Positions 1 to 11,503 of a stretch of 23,609 nucleotides of DNA are shown piece by piece. Each line of letters begins with the position of its first letter. The first letter of the stretch is position 1. The notes beneath the pieces were generated by a model. That model searched no databases. It was given only the letters and a program-made list of their open reading frames with translations, and had not been told where the DNA came from. A program made the translations under genes and the position numbers. Source of the DNA: a virus; the IMG/VR virus record IMGVR_UViG_3300000930_000256, positions 1-23,609 of that record. One strand, given 5' to 3'.

Positions 1-1228
1 TCTTAATCATATCTGAGAATGAGAAGGACGCCAACATTTCTTTTGCGTTTTCCATTCCGAACTTACCTAGAATCCATCCTATAATACCTTTGAGTAGGTC
101 AAGAGGCATACCAATAAGACCGACTAGGATACCACTGACTGCACCAAGAACACCACCAATTATACTACCACCACTAGATGCGAACCCTTCTTTGAATCCT
201 TTGAATGCATCTACGATTGTCATTATGATAGTAAGTGGGAAGAATATTGTACGACCAATAGTTCTGAAGAGAGGGAACATCTTACTGAATCCACTACCCA
301 TAGAACCGATAACCTTCTTTATCGACTTAACTGCTTTGGTTATTTTCTCCATAACCTTGCCCGTTCGACCAACACCCTTGGTTGCGTCTTTCGCTGAATC
401 CGCTCCCTTTGCAAGTGGGCCCAAGACTTTATCAAATAGTTTTATAGGTGCAAAGAGAGACTTAACACCATTTTGTACTGCACGGAAACCTCTACCAATT
501 CTAGCTATTCCAGCACCCAAACCTTTTGCCATCTTTTCGACAAAGTTCAGTTTACGGAAACTACCACGAATACTTCGGACTCCACCATTGAGTCCAGTCA
601 TACCCATTCTAAATGAGGCACCAATTCCTGATACAAGAAGTGAAATACGTTTAGGAATAGAACCGATATATTTTAATGCTGCCGTTATACGTTTAGCGTT
701 CTTACCTCGGAAACCTTTAAATGCATCTTTTACATTATCAACGAGTCGAGTCATTTGTGCGGTAAAATTAGGGAATATTTTTGCAAATCCCTTACCAATG
801 CCACGGAATAATGCTACGTAGAGTTTTATGATTCCTCGTACAACTGCGAGAGAACCTTTAACAAGAGGTTTAAAAAGAAAACGGAATCCCTTTCCAATTA
901 GTAATGCAGCTTTGGCGAATCCTTCAACGATACCTACTGCAAGACCAGCGACCATACCAAGGATTGCACCAACAATCCATAACCAAGACTTCTTCTCTTT
1001 TCCGTCACCCTTTACCTTACCTGCCTTACCACCTTTACCACCTTTACCCTTTTCTCTATCCTTTTCTAAATTATCAAGTCTCGCCTGTCTCTGTAGGTCA
1101 TAGAAATCCCCAAAGATATTGACTAATTTGTCAACACCCTTTTTGACCTTTATGGTCTTGTCCTGTTCCTCTAGAGAGGACTCACGGACTTCTTCGATTA
1201 CTTCTAAAAAACCTACTTCATTTGCCAT
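1..1228 (-). CDS. Probable tail tape-measure protein (N-terminal 409 residues; runs off the window)
   Basis: This reading frame is open from an ATG at 1228 to the window edge and carries no stop. The first ~60 residues are charged and helical (MANEVGFLEVIEEV...). A Gly/Lys-rich linker (GKGGKGGKAGK) follows, then a long series of hydrophobic and amphipathic segments (WLWIVGAILGMVAGLAVGIV; later SGGSIIGGVLGAVSGILVGL) separated by basic stretches. That pattern is common in tape-measure proteins, which set tail length inside the tube and are thought to help DNA cross the membrane. The context agrees: it lies directly downstream of the gp26 chaperone and its frameshift extension, the usual place of a tape measure in long-tailed phages. 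The ATG comes 4 bases after the extension's stop (TAA at 1235-1233), so translation may be coupled. No family motif settles the identity; another hub protein (gp28 or gp29 position) is possible. Confidence 0.6.
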   Translation of the reverse strand, partial: MANEVGFLEVIEEVRESSLEEQDKTIKVKKGVDKLVNIFGDFYDLQRQARLDNLEKDREKGKGGKGGKAGKVKGDGKEKKSWLWIVGAILGMVAGLAVGIVEGFAKAALLIGKGFRFLFKPLVKGSLAVVRGIIKLYVALFRGIGKGFAKIFPNFTAQMTRLVDNVKDAFKGFRGKNAKRITAALKYIGSIPKRISLLVSGIGASFRMGMTGLNGGVRSIRGSFRKLNFVEKMAKGLGAGIARIGRGFRAVQNGVKSLFAPIKLFDKVLGPLAKGADSAKDATKGVGRTGKVMEKITKAVKSIKKVIGSMGSGFSKMFPLFRTIGRTIFFPLTIIMTIVDAFKGFKEGFASSGGSIIGGVLGAVSGILVGLIGMPLDLLKGIIGWILGKFGMENAKEMLASFSFSDMIK

Positions 1229-1232
1229 CTTC

Positions 1233-1430
1233 TTAATACCTTAGTTTGCGTTCTTCTTCTTTTTGTCTTTCGTTCTCTTCCTCAATCCACTGCATGAGGA
1301 GAGATACGTATATGTCCCTTTCCCACGGTATCATTCCATCTAACTCTGTCAAACTATAATGATGATGTTGCATCATTGCAAAGTTTGTCTTATAATGGTT
1401 CGCTAACGAATCATGAGAAAGGGCGACTAA
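1233..1430 (-). CDS. Tail assembly chaperone extension (gp51-like), probably reached by -1 frameshift from gp26
   Basis: This open frame has no good start of its own. It begins in the -1 frame exactly at the T-run that ends gp26 and gives 65 residues to a TAA at 1235-1233, making a predicted 302-residue gp26 fusion. The peptide reads LVALSHDSLANHYKTNFAMM, then a HHHYSLTELDGMIPWERDIY core and a very acidic, Gln-rich end (EEENERQKEEER). An SLTELDGMIPWERDIY-type helix is the kind of sequence found in the C-terminal part of frameshifted tail chaperones (lambda G/GT type) and in T4-like hub assembly proteins. The only internal ATGs (the MM pair, about 20 codons in) lack a convincing ribosome site and would give a product of only about 45 residues. 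Frameshifting is inferred; separate translation or a homopolymer sequencing error are the alternatives. Confidence 0.65.
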   Translation of the reverse strand, partial: LVALSHDSLANHYKTNFAMMQHHHYSLTELDGMIPWERDIYVSLLMQWIEEENERQKEEERKLRY

Positions 1431-2140
1431 AAAAAACTTTGCATCCCCTCTAATGTGTGATTATTATCAGTTCCACATTTTTTACATTTAAATTTTACGT
1501 CTTCCTTCACTTTGGGCATATGTTCCAACCATTCTGCAAGTTTAATAAACTGTGAGGAAGTTAACTGTTCAAGAAATTCTTTCATCTCAGATTCAGATAC
1601 GTCTGACGCATCGTAACGTTCTTCATTACCCTGAACACCAGCGATACAGTTCTGAATCGTTTCATATGCAAATTCTGTTTCTGTCCTTGAAGTATCAGTA
1701 ATACCTTCAACCATATCTTTGAAATAAGGATATCTCATCTCAACAGAAATAGTATCTGTAAGTTCAATCACATTATCAATAGTCGATTCAGAACATTTTA
1801 GTTCTGATAGATTTACCTGAACTTCATTAGGAGTTTCACACCCCTCGGTCTCACAGTTGATAGTAATGTCTGCGGTTTCACCTACAGATTTACTTCTGAT
1901 TTGAAGGAAACAGTATTCCACATCAAATGTTGTAAATGTGTTAATATCGATGTCTTCTTTGATACATGCTTCAATACACTTGACCATTGCGTTCATCGCT
2001 TGTTTTTCATCATTCGTTTCGAATGCCATCAACAATATCTTTTCTTCCTTAACTAAGTAAGGTCTATATGATACTTTTTTACCCGTTGATGGGATAACCA
2101 TAGTATGGTTGGGTGTGTCATTCAGTCTTGGTAGTGCCAT
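1427..2140 (-). CDS. gp26: Baseplate hub assembly / tail assembly chaperone, gp26-like
   Basis: This 237-residue protein resembles the T4 gp26 family (T4 baseplate protein; T4 gp26 is about 208 residues), which helps assemble the central hub and tail. It begins MALPRLNDTPNHTMVIPSTG followed by KKVSYRPYLVKEEKILLMAF, the typical family opening. Two cysteine pairs stand out: C96/C101 in the middle and C219/C222 (CKKC) near the end, which could bind a zinc ion together. The start is an ATG at 2140 with a strong AGGAG ribosome site about 8 bases upstream. The gene ends on an eight-T run followed by TAG, where a -1 shift would extend it by 65 residues. It sits between the tube-fold gene and the probable tape measure, as expected of a tail chaperone. 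Confidence 0.8.
   Translation of the reverse strand: MALPRLNDTPNHTMVIPSTGKKVSYRPYLVKEEKILLMAFETNDEKQAMNAMVKCIEACIKEDIDINTFTTFDVEYCFLQIRSKSVGETADITINCETEGCETPNEVQVNLSELKCSESTIDNVIELTDTISVEMRYPYFKDMVEGITDTSRTETEFAYETIQNCIAGVQGNEERYDASDVSESEMKEFLEQLTSSQFIKLAEWLEHMPKVKEDVKFKCKKCGTDNNHTLEGMQSFF
1430..1436 (-). promoter_or_regulatory. Putative -1 ribosomal frameshift slippery site (T TTT TTT)
   Basis: On the minus strand the end of gp26 reads AGT TTT TTT TAG. The seven Ts at 1436-1430 fit the X XXY YYZ pattern for tandem -1 slippage, and the zero-frame stop lies in the next codon, which could pause the ribosome. After slippage translation continues TTA GTC GCC into the 65-residue extension. A weak 4-bp stem with a TTAG loop lies downstream (1410-1399); I see no strong pseudoknot. 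Confidence 0.6.
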
Positions 2141-2156
2141 TATAATATTCTCCTAA

Positions 2157-2873
2157 TTATAAAAATTTACTAATAAGGTTTCCAGCAAGTCCTTCTGCGA
2201 AACCGTCATTTTGGGTGACTTGGTCACCCTCTTTACTAAACCAATCCCTGTACGATAATTGTACCGATACTTCAAGGATTGATGCTTCATCATTACTTAA
2301 TTCCATTGATTGTAGTGATGTTGGGAACGCTTTATCTAACATACAGGTGTAAGTGATTTTATCTCCAGTTATGAAGTCCAAATCAATTTCACCTTGTGCA
2401 AGGTCAATTGGCCCCAATTTAGGTAACCTATTCGCAATAGACGAAGGTAGTTTACCTGAATCAAAAATTTTCTTTTTCTTAATAGGGAAAGAAACACCCT
2501 TCTTGATATGTTGAATAACGACAGGATGAGTATACTCATTGTAATACCCTATCTCATATGCACCTTGTCTTTTTACACAAAGGTCTTGCCATTTTTCAAA
2601 ATATGTTCTAATCTTAAAATCATTCATACAGTAGAATGTGATTGATACATCATCAAACAAATAACCATTTGCAATCTTTGTATTATTGATACCTATAATA
2701 TGTTCGTTCGTTTGTATCTGTCTGCCAGGAATTCCTACTCCTTTACACAAGAAGTTAAGACTTCTCGATTCACCTAAGATAGGTGGTAGAAATACTTTAA
2801 ATAGGTTGTTAACTGCAAATCCGCCGGACTTACCTACCTGAGATTTAAAATCATCTATTGTTTGTACTGCCAC
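2157..2873 (-). CDS. Tail-tube-fold protein, probably gp54 baseplate tail-tube initiator
   Basis: This 238-residue protein has the tail-tube (gp19-type) signature: an N-terminal VNNLFKVFLPPI strand, LNFLCKGVGIPGRQIQTNEH, and then a strand-rich core with VSITFYCMNDFKIRTYFEKW. The GIPGRQ loop and the 'F.. ND...R..FE.W' helix are typical of gp19-like tube proteins. At 238 residues it is longer than T4 gp19 (163) and shorter than T4 gp54 (320). Its position among gp26, tape measure and gp48 is that of gp54, which primes tube growth on the baseplate, rather than of the main tube gene, which normally follows the sheath gene. Translation starts with GTG at 2873 (GTG GCA GTA), one base after the stop of the preceding gene, with AGGT about 9 bases upstream. 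The fold is well supported; the gp54 role is inference. Confidence 0.65.
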   Translation of the reverse strand: MAVQTIDDFKSQVGKSGGFAVNNLFKVFLPPILGESRSLNFLCKGVGIPGRQIQTNEHIIGINNTKIANGYLFDDVSITFYCMNDFKIRTYFEKWQDLCVKRQGAYEIGYYNEYTHPVVIQHIKKGVSFPIKKKKIFDSGKLPSSIANRLPKLGPIDLAQGEIDLDFITGDKITYTCMLDKAFPTSLQSMELSNDEASILEVSVQLSYRDWFSKEGDQVTQNDGFAEGLAGNLISKFL

Positions 2874-5774: not shown

Positions 5775-7138
5775 TGGCAGAACAAAATCAATCCCAACAG
5801 TTTAAGATAACTGAGGCGTCGATATCCGCAGATAGACTAGGTGGGTTTGATGCAGTGTCTTATGATATCAGAACTTCGATATCAGAATTTACTGTGTTTG
5901 AAAATATCGATAGACCATACTTAACAGGTAACGTATCAATCCTAGATGATAAAGGGTTGTTCGATAAGATGAATTTTAATGGAACAGAAATACTTAGGAT
6001 TGCAATCGCTTCCGTAAGTAATGAACTTGACCCTATTATTACTAGAGACTTTAGACTTGTACAGATTGACATACAGAAAAAGGCGAATGATAATGGTAAG
6101 TCAAGTATGTACTTATTCAAATTTGTTGATGAACTTGTATTCAGTAGTAGATTAAATAAAATCAGAACATCCTTTAAGGGTACATTATCTGATGTTATCA
6201 TAAGAACTGCTGCAAAGTATCTTAAGAAAAATGTTGATATATCTTATATGACCACAAGTCAAGGGGTCACAAAGAATACTGTACAAACTAATATAAAGGG
6301 TATCATTCCTAATATGACTCCCTTACAAGCGATTGGTTGGATGATAAAACGTGCAACGACCCCAACAGGTTCACCGTTTTATTGTTGGGCATCTATTCAT
6401 GATGACAACTTACGTTTAGGTAATTTTGATGTGATGATGGCACAAAAACCTTTCAATAGTAAAATTCCATATTCATACAACCCATCTAATGTATCCGAAG
6501 CAGAAGATAATGGTGAACTAGAAAAGGCATCTATTGTAAAAGAATTAAAAGTAAAAAACCAAGGGGACACTTTAGGTCTCATTGCACACGGTTCATATTC
6601 TGCAAATCTAGGTAATACCAATCTTAACACAGGACAGATATCAGACACACACTTCTCTATAAGGAATACTATTAAGTCACTTGAAAAAGAAGGAATATTA
6701 ACTGAGGAACGTTCTCAAACATTTGACCCTTATGCAAAAATACAAGATGCATTCTTAGATGACTATGATGCATTGAACTATCATATGGTTACATCGACAG
6801 GTACATATGGGCCTCACAAAAGTTATCATGATGAATTTAATCCCAACCTATTAATTAAAAAATTAGAAGGACGTGCAATTAGAAACCATCTCATGAAAAA
6901 TGAGTTTGAATGTCTTGTTGCGGGTCAAGCATTCTTTATGGCAAAAGCATCTGTAGGTGACATTGTTAGATTGAATGTTACTAATGATAATACCGAGATT
7001 GGGGATGGTGACAACGAAGATACACTACTAGATAAAGGTAAGAGTGGAGATTTCTTGATTAGAGCGGTAAGACATAGTTTTGCAGAAACAAATCATAACG
7101 TTAGTATGAGTATTGTTAAACTCATGAAGGAACTGTAA
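5774..7138 (+). CDS. gp27: Baseplate hub subunit gp27-like
   Basis: This is a 454-residue hub protein (T4 gp27 is 391). In T4 a gp27 trimer forms the cylinder joining the tail tube to gp5. The N-terminal part reads like a hub tube-domain: a YDIRTSISEFTVFENIDRPY strand pair, LTGNVSILDDKGLFDKMNF, and GTEILRIAIAS. A central TPLQAIGWMIKRATTPTGSP and a C-terminal FECLVAGQAFFMAKASVGDI VRL barrel complete the gp27/gpD-like layout. It starts with GTG at 5774, sharing one base with the gp53 stop, and its TAA overlaps the ATG of the gp5-like gene by one base. That tight order (53-27-5) supports a gp27-gp5 hub complex. The identification rests on motif pattern and position rather than strong residue identity. 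Confidence 0.82.
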   Translation: MAEQNQSQQFKITEASISADRLGGFDAVSYDIRTSISEFTVFENIDRPYLTGNVSILDDKGLFDKMNFNGTEILRIAIASVSNELDPIITRDFRLVQIDIQKKANDNGKSSMYLFKFVDELVFSSRLNKIRTSFKGTLSDVIIRTAAKYLKKNVDISYMTTSQGVTKNTVQTNIKGIIPNMTPLQAIGWMIKRATTPTGSPFYCWASIHDDNLRLGNFDVMMAQKPFNSKIPYSYNPSNVSEAEDNGELEKASIVKELKVKNQGDTLGLIAHGSYSANLGNTNLNTGQISDTHFSIRNTIKSLEKEGILTEERSQTFDPYAKIQDAFLDDYDALNYHMVTSTGTYGPHKSYHDEFNPNLLIKKLEGRAIRNHLMKNEFECLVAGQAFFMAKASVGDIVRLNVTNDNTEIGDGDNEDTLLDKGKSGDFLIRAVRHSFAETNHNVSMSIVKLMKEL

Positions 7139-8013
7139 TGGAAAAGATTGAGTTCAAACCAATCCCTAGTGAATACTATGGGGATAATACTCGTTGGTTT
7201 ATTGCGACAGTAATCGATGCATCACCACCTTATGGATTTGAGGGACGTGTAAAGATTAGAGTACATGGTATTCATAGTCAATCAACTAAAGATATTCCGC
7301 AGACAGACCTTCCTTGGGCACAATGTGTTGTACCAACAACAGAAGGTGGTGTATCAGGAATAGGACGCATCCCACAATTACAACCAAGTGCTTTAGTCTT
7401 TGGTTTCTTTGTTGATGGTGTAAACTCTCAGACACCTATTATTATAGGAAGTCTTCCCCATATAGAATTACCCAACCTCTTACAATCAGAACAAGCGAAT
7501 GAGGATATTGGAGATGATACAAAACCAAATGGGGTATGGGAAAATGTTGTTAAGGTATTTCAACCAAAAGATGTTGATGTTCAAAACGAAGTAAGTGGTA
7601 ATATCAATAATCGAATTAAACAATCAAGAGAAAAAGCGACTGTTAGGTTCTTCCTAAATATAGGTTACACACTAAGACAGAGTATTGCAATTGCAAGTGG
7701 TTTGAGTATCGCAAGTGGTATGAGGACAGGGACGAATGTGCAGTCGAATGGATTGGGTAGGTTCTCAGAACAAAGATATTCTTTATTGAAACAGTTCTCC
7801 CCTAACTTTCCACACTTTTATACACAACTTGCTTTTATTGCATATGAACTTCGTGGAACTAAGAATGGTGCAAACATAAGACTTCTACGTTCAGATAAGA
7901 TAAAGGGTAAAGAGGGTACATGTGAAATATTTTGTAGATACTATCTCCAACACCCGTCATTATCAAAACAAACACAGTTCAAAGCACAAAGACTTTTGGA
8001 TAGGATTGGATAA
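7138..8013 (+). CDS. gp5: Baseplate hub protein: gp5-type OB-fold plus degenerate lysozyme-like domain
   Basis: Residues ~17-110 are a gp5/VgrG-type OB-fold: RWFIATVIDASPPYGFEGRV, VKIRVHG, DLPWAQCVVPTTEGG and FVDGVNSQTPIIIGSLP. In T4 gp5 this domain binds the gp27 trimer. Residues ~165-290 look like the phage tail lysozyme family (FLNIGYTLRQSIAIASGLSI ... YTQLAFIAYELRG ... FCRYYLQHP). However, the usual catalytic 'ESG' reads I-A-S-G with Ala192 in place of Glu, and the usual 'FGIAQW' block reads GLGRFSEQR (205-213). The domain is therefore probably inactive and structural. At 291 residues it lacks the T4 beta-helix, which is a separate gene further on. Its start and stop each overlap the neighbouring gene by one base. 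Confidence 0.85.
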   Translation: MEKIEFKPIPSEYYGDNTRWFIATVIDASPPYGFEGRVKIRVHGIHSQSTKDIPQTDLPWAQCVVPTTEGGVSGIGRIPQLQPSALVFGFFVDGVNSQTPIIIGSLPHIELPNLLQSEQANEDIGDDTKPNGVWENVVKVFQPKDVDVQNEVSGNINNRIKQSREKATVRFFLNIGYTLRQSIAIASGLSIASGMRTGTNVQSNGLGRFSEQRYSLLKQFSPNFPHFYTQLAFIAYELRGTKNGANIRLLRSDKIKGKEGTCEIFCRYYLQHPSLSKQTQFKAQRLLDRIG

Positions 8014-10001
8014 TGAGTACTAAAGACGATGTAAACATAAAACTCAGACAACAGGGTCAGTCTGCGGGTAAAACTAAACAAGAATATAAAGTTATAACGA
8101 TAAGAGGTGTCGATGAAGACGGGTTCTCTTATACTGAAAAGAAGCGTGTCCCTGTTGAATCTTCTGAAGGTGCGGGATATCAAGATAAAGCGGTTACTGC
8201 ACAAGAAGGTAACTATGCAAAACAAGCGACCAAGGTAGGACAAACTGCGGGTGAAGTCAATGGTGGAGTACTATCAGTTGACGAACCAAACGAAGAAGGT
8301 GAAGTAATCCTTAATGAAAGTATTGGTGAAATCACCGATGATGTTGGTCTTGATGGTCTTATAGACCCAACGACTAATTTGAATTATGGGCCAGGTATAC
8401 CATCCTTTAACTATTTTGAGATTGATTCAAACGGAGTTCAACAATTCAGTAATCTAGATTCCGCAGATTCTATTACCGCAGAAAAGGTCGGTGGTGATTC
8501 TGCACAACCTCTAAGTGATATTCTTAATTCATTGACAGGAATGGGAACTGCACTCACTAATCTGAACTCAGGACTTGCAGTAGTTGGTGCGGGTGGTATC
8601 AGTGGTGTCCAAGCAGGAATCGATGCTGGTGTTGCGGGTGCGAACCAACTCGTATCTGACGTAAAAGATGCAGTTGCAAATGTAGGTAGTGTTGCTGATG
8701 TGGGACAAATGGCGAATGTAGCACAAGATGCTGCTATGAATGCAATCAATGATGTTGCAAGTAATATCACATCTATTCCAACCTTTGCACCTGGCGCTAG
8801 TCTTAATAGTGTTACCCCCGACTCAGTATTAGAACAAGTAAATAATATATCAGGGTTTGGTGCTTTGAGTGCGTTAAAGACCGCTGCAAAGAATACCTTG
8901 AGTAAATTCCCTAGTGTTGCAAGTTTTATGGATAAGGCAAAAGACCTTGTCTCCGATGTACAATCTCTTTCAGATAGTATCACAAATTTCAATACAAATA
9001 TTACAACCCAAATCAACGAGGGACTTAGTGATGCGGGTGGTATTCTTCAAGATATTGGAGAAGGTATTACAGGTAAGGCAAAAGGAACTATTTCAGGTTT
9101 GGCAGGAAGTGCCGCTCCATTTAATAAAGAGAAGACTAAAGAACTCGTGGGTAAGACAAAAGGAAGTGTTTCTGAACAAGCAAGTGTGGTACAAGAGACA
9201 GTTGCAGTAAATCCTACAGTAACACCAAGAATGCAAGAGGTGGTTAGTGAAGTAGAGACTACAGAAACCACCCAAGAATTATCAAATCAAGTCCAAGACA
9301 AAGCTGCGGAAAAAGGTATTCCACCCGAAGAGGTTAGTGCAACTGTTGAAGTTATCGAACGTGCAGACGAAGAAGTACAATCCCTTGATACTACTATATC
9401 AGGGACTAATGTTGTGGACGCATCTTTCTTTGAAGAGAGTAAACCAATTGATGCAAGTACACAGAAATGGAGTGGTAGAGACACCAAGGATGATGCATTT
9501 ACATACGTATCATCTGTAGAAGAACTTGAAGCGGAAATACGTTCTATAGAAAGAACTCTACAATCTGTAGTTATTCATGCAACCGAAACAACCACGGATA
9601 AGAATATTGGTGCAATTGAAATAAACAATATACAAAAAGATTTAGGTCTTGATGGTATTGGATATCACTATGTGATTAGAAGAGATGGTAGATTACAACG
9701 TGGTAGACCCATCAATAAAAAGGGTGAACATCTCGCATCTCTAGATGCAACATCGATTGGTGTTGTATTGGTTGGTGGTTTAAACTGTTCTTCAGGGGAA
9801 GCAAACCCTACAATGTATAGGTCTTCTCAATCATTTACCATGATACAGTATAACACACTTGAAAAGATATTGCAAGCGTTTTATAGAAGATATCCTGGCG
9901 GGTTAGTCTTTGGTCACAATGACCTTGATGAAGATGAGTTCGACCCATACTTTGATGTTGAAGATTATATCGAAGCGACATTTAGGAAAACAAACGGATG
10001 A
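8013..10001 (+). CDS. Hub-associated protein with C-terminal N-acetylmuramoyl-L-alanine amidase domain
   Basis: This is a 662-residue protein. Residues 1-~500 are low-complexity, Ala/Ser/Gly/Asp-rich and probably largely helical (for example ANVAQDAAMNAINDVASNIT, and repeated 'DVQSLSDSITNFNTNITTQI'-type stretches). Residues ~515-660 are an amidase_2/PGRP domain: VVIHATE, GIGYHYVIRRDGRLQRGRPI, SIGVVLVGG, GHNDLDEDEFDPYFDV. The likely zinc ligands are His522, His635 and Asp644, an AmpD-like His-His-Asp set. The AmpD/T7-type catalytic Lys two residues before the third ligand is replaced by Glu642. The expected activity is cleavage of the amide bond between MurNAc and L-Ala in peptidoglycan during infection. 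It lies between the gp5-like and needle genes, where the lysozyme domain sits in T4 gp5, and overlaps the needle gene by ATGA. Confidence 0.85.
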   Translation: MSTKDDVNIKLRQQGQSAGKTKQEYKVITIRGVDEDGFSYTEKKRVPVESSEGAGYQDKAVTAQEGNYAKQATKVGQTAGEVNGGVLSVDEPNEEGEVILNESIGEITDDVGLDGLIDPTTNLNYGPGIPSFNYFEIDSNGVQQFSNLDSADSITAEKVGGDSAQPLSDILNSLTGMGTALTNLNSGLAVVGAGGISGVQAGIDAGVAGANQLVSDVKDAVANVGSVADVGQMANVAQDAAMNAINDVASNITSIPTFAPGASLNSVTPDSVLEQVNNISGFGALSALKTAAKNTLSKFPSVASFMDKAKDLVSDVQSLSDSITNFNTNITTQINEGLSDAGGILQDIGEGITGKAKGTISGLAGSAAPFNKEKTKELVGKTKGSVSEQASVVQETVAVNPTVTPRMQEVVSEVETTETTQELSNQVQDKAAEKGIPPEEVSATVEVIERADEEVQSLDTTISGTNVVDASFFEESKPIDASTQKWSGRDTKDDAFTYVSSVEELEAEIRSIERTLQSVVIHATETTTDKNIGAIEINNIQKDLGLDGIGYHYVIRRDGRLQRGRPINKKGEHLASLDATSIGVVLVGGLNCSSGEANPTMYRSSQSFTMIQYNTLEKILQAFYRRYPGGLVFGHNDLDEDEFDPYFDVEDYIEATFRKTNG

Positions 10002-11503
10002 CAACTAAGAACGACAATTTCGAAGGAAGAGTTGATAAACTAGGTGAAGGTCTAGAATTAACTCTTGGTGTTCCACAGGATGGTGGAGTTGACCCAACAG
10101 GTGAGTATCCTAAGAGGGATTATAACTTTGGGTCTTCACTAAACCAAGCAGCACGTGGTACAAAGATTAATGAACTCTATATCGGGGGTGGTGATATAGG
10201 ACTATCTCTTGATATTGCACCTCAACGACCATCCGAATATCCATTTAACCAAGTACAAGAAACTCCGAGTGGTCATGTTATTGAGATGGATGACACTGCG
10301 GGTGGTGAACGTGTTCTTATTAAACACCGTAAAGGTGCGGGAGTAGAACTTCGTGCGGACGGTTCTGTTATTATATCTTCTGTTAATAACAAGGTTGAAG
10401 TAACAGGTGGTGACCAAACTACTATTGTAGAGGGTCATGGTAATCTTATCTACAAAGGTAATTTAAATCTTGTGGTCACTGGAGATTACAACGTGGATGT
10501 GGGTGGTAACTACAATGTTCAAGTTGCGGGAACTCGTGTAACAAGTATCGGAAGAAATAGTAGTGAACATATCGAAGGTAATAATACTCAAATCATTAAA
10601 AAGAATAGGTCTACTCGTATTGTAGGAAAAGATACTAAGATGACTTATGGAACTCAATCCGATTATATTCGTGGTGATGCCAAGAAATGGGTACAGGGTG
10701 CATTCGAGACTGCGGTTGAAACTAATATGTTTACCTCTGCAAAGAACTCATATGCAGTAACATCCAAAACCTCTTCTCTAGTGGGTAATGATTTTGTATC
10801 TGTCATGGGTAATGATGGTACAATTGGTGGAACTAACGTTGACTTCACGGGTAAAGCATATATGGGTAAAGAAGGCCCGACTGCATACACAAGTGGTGCA
10901 TCATTCTATGGTACATTCCTAGGACAAGCAACTGAATCAATTTTCTCACAATTTGCATGGCAGGCAGACCGTTCCAAACATGCAGAATGGTCAGATATAT
11001 CTGCTGACCTCAATGGAACATTTACTGTTGCTGCTGGGGTTCATACTGGATACGTTAAAGGTGCAGAACACGGTCATGAAGCAAAAGGTTATGACATTAA
11101 AATGAATCAAGAAATATTACAACCTGATGGGCCACCTCCTGTTGCACCCCTTATTGGTGCATACACAAGTATGGGTGACTTTTCAATTCGTACAGTAGTA
11201 ATTGATGCGGATGATAGGTTGTTGAACAAGATGATATTCACAGATGACTATCAGAACTACTTTAATAAACCACCTACAACTCAAGAGATACGTAGTGCGT
11301 TCCGTGACCCATCTATTAAAGATGCGTTGGGTGGACAAATGGTAACTGAACAAAGACTGTCATCAAACTATTCAAGAACAACCCCACCTAAAATTGGTAG
11401 GACATCTTCTTCTAAACCAACTCCAAGATTTGGATTTACTGCAATCGGAAACTCTACCGAAAATAGAGGAAAAAGATTTACACCGAAGGTATCAAGACGA
11501 TGA
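9998..11503 (+). CDS. gp5-type beta-helix needle (cell-puncturing spike) protein
   Basis: This 501-residue protein corresponds to the C-terminal part of T4 gp5. Residues ~88-130 (TPSGHVIEMDDTAGGERVLI, KHRKGAGVELRADGSVII) are the VgrG/gp5 spike entry motif. From residue 138 to 234 a glycine falls on every eighth position (138, 146, 154, 162, 170, 178, 194, 210, 218, 226, 234), broken only at 186 (Arg) and 202 (Lys). This is the VxGxxxxx octad pattern of the T4 gp5 triple-stranded beta-helix. The remaining ~265 residues, with a Gly/Ser/Thr-rich region and a basic Ser/Pro-rich tail, have no clear counterpart. It overlaps the upstream amidase gene and the downstream gene by ATGA, so all three are probably made in coupled fashion. 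I found no PAAR tip gene in the window. Confidence 0.9.
   Translation: MTTKNDNFEGRVDKLGEGLELTLGVPQDGGVDPTGEYPKRDYNFGSSLNQAARGTKINELYIGGGDIGLSLDIAPQRPSEYPFNQVQETPSGHVIEMDDTAGGERVLIKHRKGAGVELRADGSVIISSVNNKVEVTGGDQTTIVEGHGNLIYKGNLNLVVTGDYNVDVGGNYNVQVAGTRVTSIGRNSSEHIEGNNTQIIKKNRSTRIVGKDTKMTYGTQSDYIRGDAKKWVQGAFETAVETNMFTSAKNSYAVTSKTSSLVGNDFVSVMGNDGTIGGTNVDFTGKAYMGKEGPTAYTSGASFYGTFLGQATESIFSQFAWQADRSKHAEWSDISADLNGTFTVAAGVHTGYVKGAEHGHEAKGYDIKMNQEILQPDGPPPVAPLIGAYTSMGDFSIRTVVIDADDRLLNKMIFTDDYQNYFNKPPTTQEIRSAFRDPSIKDALGGQMVTEQRLSSNYSRTTPPKIGRTSSSKPTPRFGFTAIGNSTENRGKRFTPKVSRR

Follow-up and report, generated by a model that had tools for sequence, protein, structure and literature searches.

A probable programmed −1 frameshift joins gp26 to a gp51-like extension in a T4-type tail assembly chaperone gene

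Introduction

In the G/GT system of phage lambda, a short chaperone gene precedes the tape measure gene, and a −1 slip near its 3' end, at G GGA AAG, adds a C-terminal domain whose coding sequence extends almost to the tape measure gene. This frameshift was reportedly described by Levin in 1993 and by Xu in 2004. Frameshifting of the G/GT kind is general in long-tailed phages, among which T4 has been listed as an exception (PMC5009743). Reviews of T4 describe gp26 and gp51 as hub assembly chaperones and give the function of gp51 as unknown (PMC3004832). The gp51 of cyanophages has about 20% of the length of T4 gp51, with the first ~200 amino acids missing, a truncation left unexplained in the passages on this protein in Sullivan et al. 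2010 (PMC3037559).

According to papers that cite it (PMC10885494, PMC12846349), the work of Vladimirov, Gautam & Davidson (2022) identified the chaperone genes of T4-type phages. It is credited with the poly-T slippery sites in T4-like TAC-N genes (PMC12846349) and is cited for some T4-like phages in which a short gene and a long fused gene replace the frameshift (PMC10885494). In Vandenendeviridae and Andersonviridae, which are different phage families from those considered here, a −1 shift is placed at a conserved GTTTTT at the end of the chaperone (TAC) gene, and the downstream open reading frame (ORF) has likewise been mis-annotated as a separate gene; the passages of that paper on these families describe no stimulatory elements (PMC12846349).

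Here we analyse a stretch of 23,609 nucleotides, referred to as the window, which is the complete IMG/VR record IMGVR_UViG_3300000930_000256 (23.6 kb) and probably a fragment of a genome. Sequence comparisons lead us to conclude, with high confidence, that a single tail-assembly-chaperone gene of this T4-type phage encodes two products by programmed −1 frameshifting: a protein of 237 aa and a 302-aa gp26–gp51 fusion.

Results

The gp26 gene of the window (1427..2140, minus strand) encodes a 237-aa zero-frame product, here TAC-N, that matches PF12322 (T4_baseplate, E 6e-56) and phrog_150 (baseplate hub, E 1e-58). Read on the minus strand, the gene ends CAA AGT TTT TTT TAG, in which the zero-frame stop TAG (1429-1427) immediately follows the slippery heptamer T TTT TTT (1430..1436, minus). 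A −1 step on this run opens 65 further codons (1236..1430, minus), the putative C-terminal domain (TAC-C, or 'gp51'), with the sequence LVALSHDSLANHYKTNFAMMQHHHYSLTELDGMIPWERDIYVSLLMQWIEEENERQKEEERKLRY and a TAA stop at 1235-1233; gp26 and the extension together give a predicted fusion of 302 residues. This junction, which the original prediction had described from the same letters, was confirmed at 2140..1427 on the minus strand. The tape-measure candidate that it placed 4 nt downstream was also found there: an ATG at 1228, 4 nt past the extension stop, begins an ORF (2..1228, minus) that runs past the edge of the window and has weak-to-moderate matches to tape measure profiles (phrog_5493, E 1e-7; phrog_305, E 6e-7).

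Upstream of gp26 lies a tail tube or tube-initiator-like gene in the gp54 position (2157..2873, minus; phrog_45, E 1e-35), which places the chaperone locus between a tail tube gene and an ORF recognized as tape-measure-like from moderate matches only. The upstream neighbours are those of a T4-type phage (tube/tube-initiator, end protector and head closure), and gp48-, gp53-, gp5-, gp25- and gp6-like genes are found farther out. Within the 23.6-kb record, itself a fragment, there is a single gp26-family ORF and no separate full-length gp51 gene. In the pelagiphages Mosig and HTVC008M (L022:6186-6588, L114:4403-4735), one or two small ORFs separate the extension from the tape measure gene; the window has none. 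Elsewhere in the window, a 662-aa ORF on the plus strand (8013-9998) ends in an N-acetylmuramoyl-L-alanine amidase domain (PF01510, E 7e-11; phrog_822, E 3e-31) and is flanked by a gp5-N-like ORF (7138-8010) and a gp5-C-trimer-like ORF (9998-11500). The tail lysozyme of this phage thus appears to be split, with its enzyme swapped for an amidase.

Relatives of gp26 were gathered from IMG/VR and from annotated phages. The T8 run at 1436-1429 is the sole T8 in the window, against 4.7 expected by chance; the run alone is therefore unremarkable, and only its conservation counts. Of 162 loci that differ from one another over the junction, 157 carry an in-frame T TTT TTN at the gp26 end, the five ends without it being the two T4 genes and those of RB43, Vibrio phage phiTY18 and Vibrio phage K448. 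Compared over a slightly longer stretch, 160 distinct loci carry the heptamer (TTC in 137, TTT in 21, TTA and TTG in one each), and in all of them the extension lies in the −1 frame, so the recurrence in related phages that had been proposed as a check on the T-run and its frame is found. Where the heptamer ends in TTA or TTG, the second residue has changed from Phe to Leu and the heptamer has been kept. The base before the first TTT is T in 102 of 102 loci that are less than 80% identical, where 0.63 is expected from their own codon use; the corresponding log10 P of −23 assumes independence and is made optimistic by phylogeny, and its direction is clear. The residue before the Phe codons varies (S, D, N, A, T or R) and the wobble T is invariant. 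Divergent relatives of gp26 with 20–24% identity (L017:990-2020, L018:3754-4830) keep AGT TTT TTC and a −1 extension.

Homopolymers are prone to misreading, and the break in frame could mark a sequencing error, or a pseudogene frameshift, in what is truly one continuous gene. The same T8 occurs, however, in independently assembled contigs at 99% identity (L002, L004) and at 82–83% identity (L003, L016), which argues against a read error or an assembly artefact. The same −1 arrangement, moreover, is present at the same codon in isolates from many laboratories, most of which have T6C and not a long homopolymer. Conservation and the independent contigs rule out a chance T-run or a sequencing error, and a broken continuous frame has next to no probability as a reading of this locus.

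Judged from substitution patterns, the extension is under purifying selection solely in the −1 frame. Pooled over 65 independent pairs, its dN/dS is 0.09 in that frame, compared with 0.99 and 2.8 in the other two, and the gp26 end has a dN/dS-type ratio of 0.11 in its own frame; these substitution counts, like the covariation statistics below, ignore phylogeny. By itself the extension matches phrog_634, 'baseplate hub assembly catalyst' (gp51), with an E of 4e-29, and it is present in 610 records. In several loci a stop just 5' of the heptamer shuts the −1 frame, which does not open until −7 or −10, counted from the gp26 stop. In these loci the switch between frames must therefore occur at the T-run.

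Public records, including most cyanophage annotations, present the extension as a separate small gene, gp51, which would be produced either by stop-restart or through a start codon of its own. Some loci offer the means for this: ATG, GTG or TTG occurs at codon indices 1–3 after the slip in 33 of the 102 representatives, and several loci show TGATG or TAATG overlaps. Many representatives, however, the window's clade included, lack an ATG, GTG or TTG among the 12 codons that follow the slip, despite the conservation of this segment. The earliest such codon in the extension frame of the window is codon 19, which leaves about 18 conserved residues ahead of the first conceivable start; most of the window's clade likewise lacks a start in the first 18 codons while conserving the residues. 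T TTT TTN is kept even where restart is possible, the offset is −1 at all loci where independent genes would drift in frame, and in T4 gp51 the gp26 part is fused in frame. A separate gp51 gene with its own start is rejected for the window's clade, where the extension indeed lacks a usable start as originally proposed, and we regard it as very unlikely as an account of the locus. In Vibrio phage K448 (L116:4150-4400), the gp26 relative has no slip site and the extension, still in the −1 frame, begins at a TAATGG overlap; from this sequence, K448 may make the extension by reinitiation as a separate peptide.

We compared an AF2 model of gp26 (pLDDT 88.5) with solved structures. Over residues 1–96 the model gave Z scores of 7.8 to 3fgx, 7.1 to 2ob9 and 4.7 to 5ir0, with the next match at 2.5. 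The superposition on the HK97 tail assembly chaperone 2ob9 lies within residues 1–91 of the model and covers 85 residues at 4.3 A, with a weak Foldseek E of 0.68, and a Z near 7 can reflect a common arrangement. Because the Foldseek E-values are weak, the model makes a chaperone-like fold of the gp26 N-domain likely, short of proof. Used by itself as the query, the modelled extension (AF2 pLDDT 74) gave no useful match among known folds, and a search by sequence for solved homologues of T4 gp51 found none.

The surroundings of the heptamer, with a candidate SD-like element and a predicted stem, resemble the −1 cassette of E. coli dnaX, in which an SD-like element, a slippery heptamer and a downstream stem are combined. 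Averaged over the 102 loci, the energy of the anti-SD duplex drops to a sharp minimum that ends 7–8 nt before the heptamer. The SD-like motif ends 8–10 nt upstream in most loci and is absent in 21 of the 102. The signal exceeds that of synonymous shuffles with a P of 1.7e-8, a value that ignores kinship and is obtained where the Leu-Glu-Gly residues are themselves conserved. The candidate element of the window, GAGGGG (1445..1450, minus), coincides with the energy minimum and lies at 1450-1445, 8 nt 5' of the heptamer, compared with the ~10 nt expected of dnaX-type spacing. The divergent relatives L017 and L018 have no SD-like element.

On the 3' side, the window is predicted to form a 12-bp long-range stem that starts 6 nt past the heptamer (MFE −32.3, z −3.5, equalled in 0 of 200 shuffles), its 5' arm at 1412..1423 and its 3' arm, inside the PWER codons, at 1316..1327 (both minus). 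This predicted start falls within the 5–9 nt of a dnaX-type stem. The window departs from dnaX in that its shift gives the longer product, its heptamer is T-rich and the arms of its stem lie ~85 nt apart. Support for the stem is drawn from ensemble folding, slid controls and covariation. Among the 44 sequences of the window's clade, 80% of stem cells pair, compared with 39–67% in slid controls; codon choice favours pairing above both synonymous and column-preserving shuffles, and the two strongest C/T–G/A associations among 213 third-position pairs are pairs of this stem. RNAalifold returned no consensus structure for the downstream region of the 44-sequence alignment, and we therefore put forward a stimulatory role of the stem, together with that of the SD-like element, as a hypothesis. 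The register of the stem is not common to all clades and fails in cyanophages with other residues at that place. S-PM2 (L021:6712-6771) and its relatives show a local hairpin of 12–14 bp just past T TTT TTC (z −5.5), and the design is accordingly predicted to differ, long-range in the window's clade and local in the relatives of S-PM2.

These elements also bear on whether the slip is made by the ribosome or by the polymerase. Transcriptional slippage on T8 would yield a fusion mRNA; bacteria are known to show such slippage on A/T runs of about 9 (PMC5009743), and T8 is present in the window and in 12 of the 102 representatives. In 85 of the 102, however, there are only six Ts followed by C, too short a run for efficient polymerase slippage. 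What is conserved is a heptamer in the codon phase that suits ribosomes, and an SD-like element and a downstream stem would act on ribosomes. We consider transcriptional slippage highly improbable and favour a ribosomal −1 shift.

Comparison with T4 clarifies the relation between gp26 and gp51. T4 gp51 (249 aa) matches PF12322 (E 4e-52) and phrog_150 over positions 13–280 of 282 (E 2.6e-84), and T4 gp26 matches the same families, its phrog_150 match ending at 235. When the proteins are aligned, the end of T4 gp26 coincides with the slip site and the −1 extension lines up with the C-terminal end of T4 gp51. T4 gp51 is therefore a paralog of gp26 that carries the extension in frame, and it follows that the short 'gp51' ORFs of cyanophages, the same as those of Sullivan et al. 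2010 (PMC3037559), represent the C-terminal portion of a gp26–gp51 frameshift product. The two systems share a protein family, with gp26 as the short form and gp51 as the paralog with the extension, and differ in that T4 has two genes on opposite strands without a slip site whereas the window has one gene with a slip site.

The two-gene state of T4 is also found in RB43, Aeromonas phage 31, Ac42 and phiP4-3. From their sequences, the Straboviridae phi-ST2, AsFcp_4 and EniLVp02 have the frameshift arrangement instead. Vibrio phage phiTY18 (L105:2308-3653) carries tandem gp26-family genes directly before the tape measure gene, a short one and then a long one with the extension in frame. In a tree of the family, the T4-type pairs adjoin the frameshifting Straboviridae and the phiTY18 pair is placed elsewhere. 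This suggests that frameshifting was replaced by duplication twice, once in the T4-type lineage and once in that of phiTY18. An order with the frameshift first and duplication later is only favoured, because the tree has long branches (both phiTY18 copies, and gp26 of RB43 and Aeromonas phage 31) and an arbitrary root. We suggest tentatively, and with somewhat less than even confidence, that the T4-type ancestor used a three-part recoding signal, that the stem was rebuilt in each lineage, as a long-range stem in the window/pelagiphage clade and as a local hairpin in the relatives of S-PM2, and that the T-even and phiTY18 lineages separately switched to duplication, by which one gene became 26 and 51.

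Discussion

The central proposal of the original prediction, a programmed −1 frameshift producing a gp26–gp51-like fusion, is upheld by the conservation of the slip site, the frame-specific selection on the extension, its homology to phrog_634 and the probable resemblance of the modelled N-domain to the HK97 chaperone. We infer that the majority of ribosomes would terminate at TAG to give gp26 (TAC-N, 237 aa), and that a minority would slip −1 on T TTT TTT to give the 302-aa fusion (TAC-NC). Three elements would probably promote slippage: the GAGGGG 8 nt 5' of the heptamer, the stop codon that immediately follows it and the long-range stem that starts 6 nt past it. If the parallel with lambda G/GT holds, TAC-N may coat the tape measure protein, whose gene comes next, and the C-domain of the fusion may recruit tube or hub subunits. 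T4 obtains the same two products from two genes, 26 for the short form and its paralog 51 for the long one.

The locus had also been read as the lambda G/GT layout inside a T4-type phage. The layout is supported, but it is not peculiar to the phage of the window: it is the rule in Kyanoviridae and in many other T4-type phages, in which 'gp51' has been wrongly annotated as a short gene of its own. The slip sites differ from that of lambda, the T4-type loci having T TTT TTN accompanied by an SD-like element and a predicted stem on the 3' side, and no sequence homology to lambda G is claimed for gp26, whose N-domain has a probable likeness to the HK97 chaperone in fold only.

The mechanism itself is already known in kind, and novelty is limited because Vladimirov et al. 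2022, as represented in the papers citing it, identified the T4-type chaperone genes and is credited with their poly-T sites. We found no report of stimulatory RNA elements of the T4-type TAC frameshift in the literature, in which Vladimirov et al. 2022 was represented by those citing papers. Aspects that may be new are the architecture of the stimulatory RNA elements, the way it has changed from lineage to lineage and the assignment of an uncultured marine phage to the frameshifting group.

The truncated look of cyanophage gp51, as described in the passages of Sullivan et al. concerned (PMC3037559), is explained if the missing part is gp26, joined to it by frameshifting. The role of gp26 and gp51, presented in the T4 literature as hub assembly chaperones whose mechanism is unknown, becomes testable where one gene encodes both, and the family offers a natural series of candidate stimulator designs together with two probable replacements by gene duplication. 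The annotation of several hundred genomes of marine phages would be corrected, since these depict a single frameshifted gene either as a pair of genes or as one gene and a gap; none of the annotated phage records examined joins both reading frames. In S-WAM1 (L023:5303-6004), the annotated start of gp26 (5417) falls ~114 nt into the region of homology, and no annotation covers the extension.
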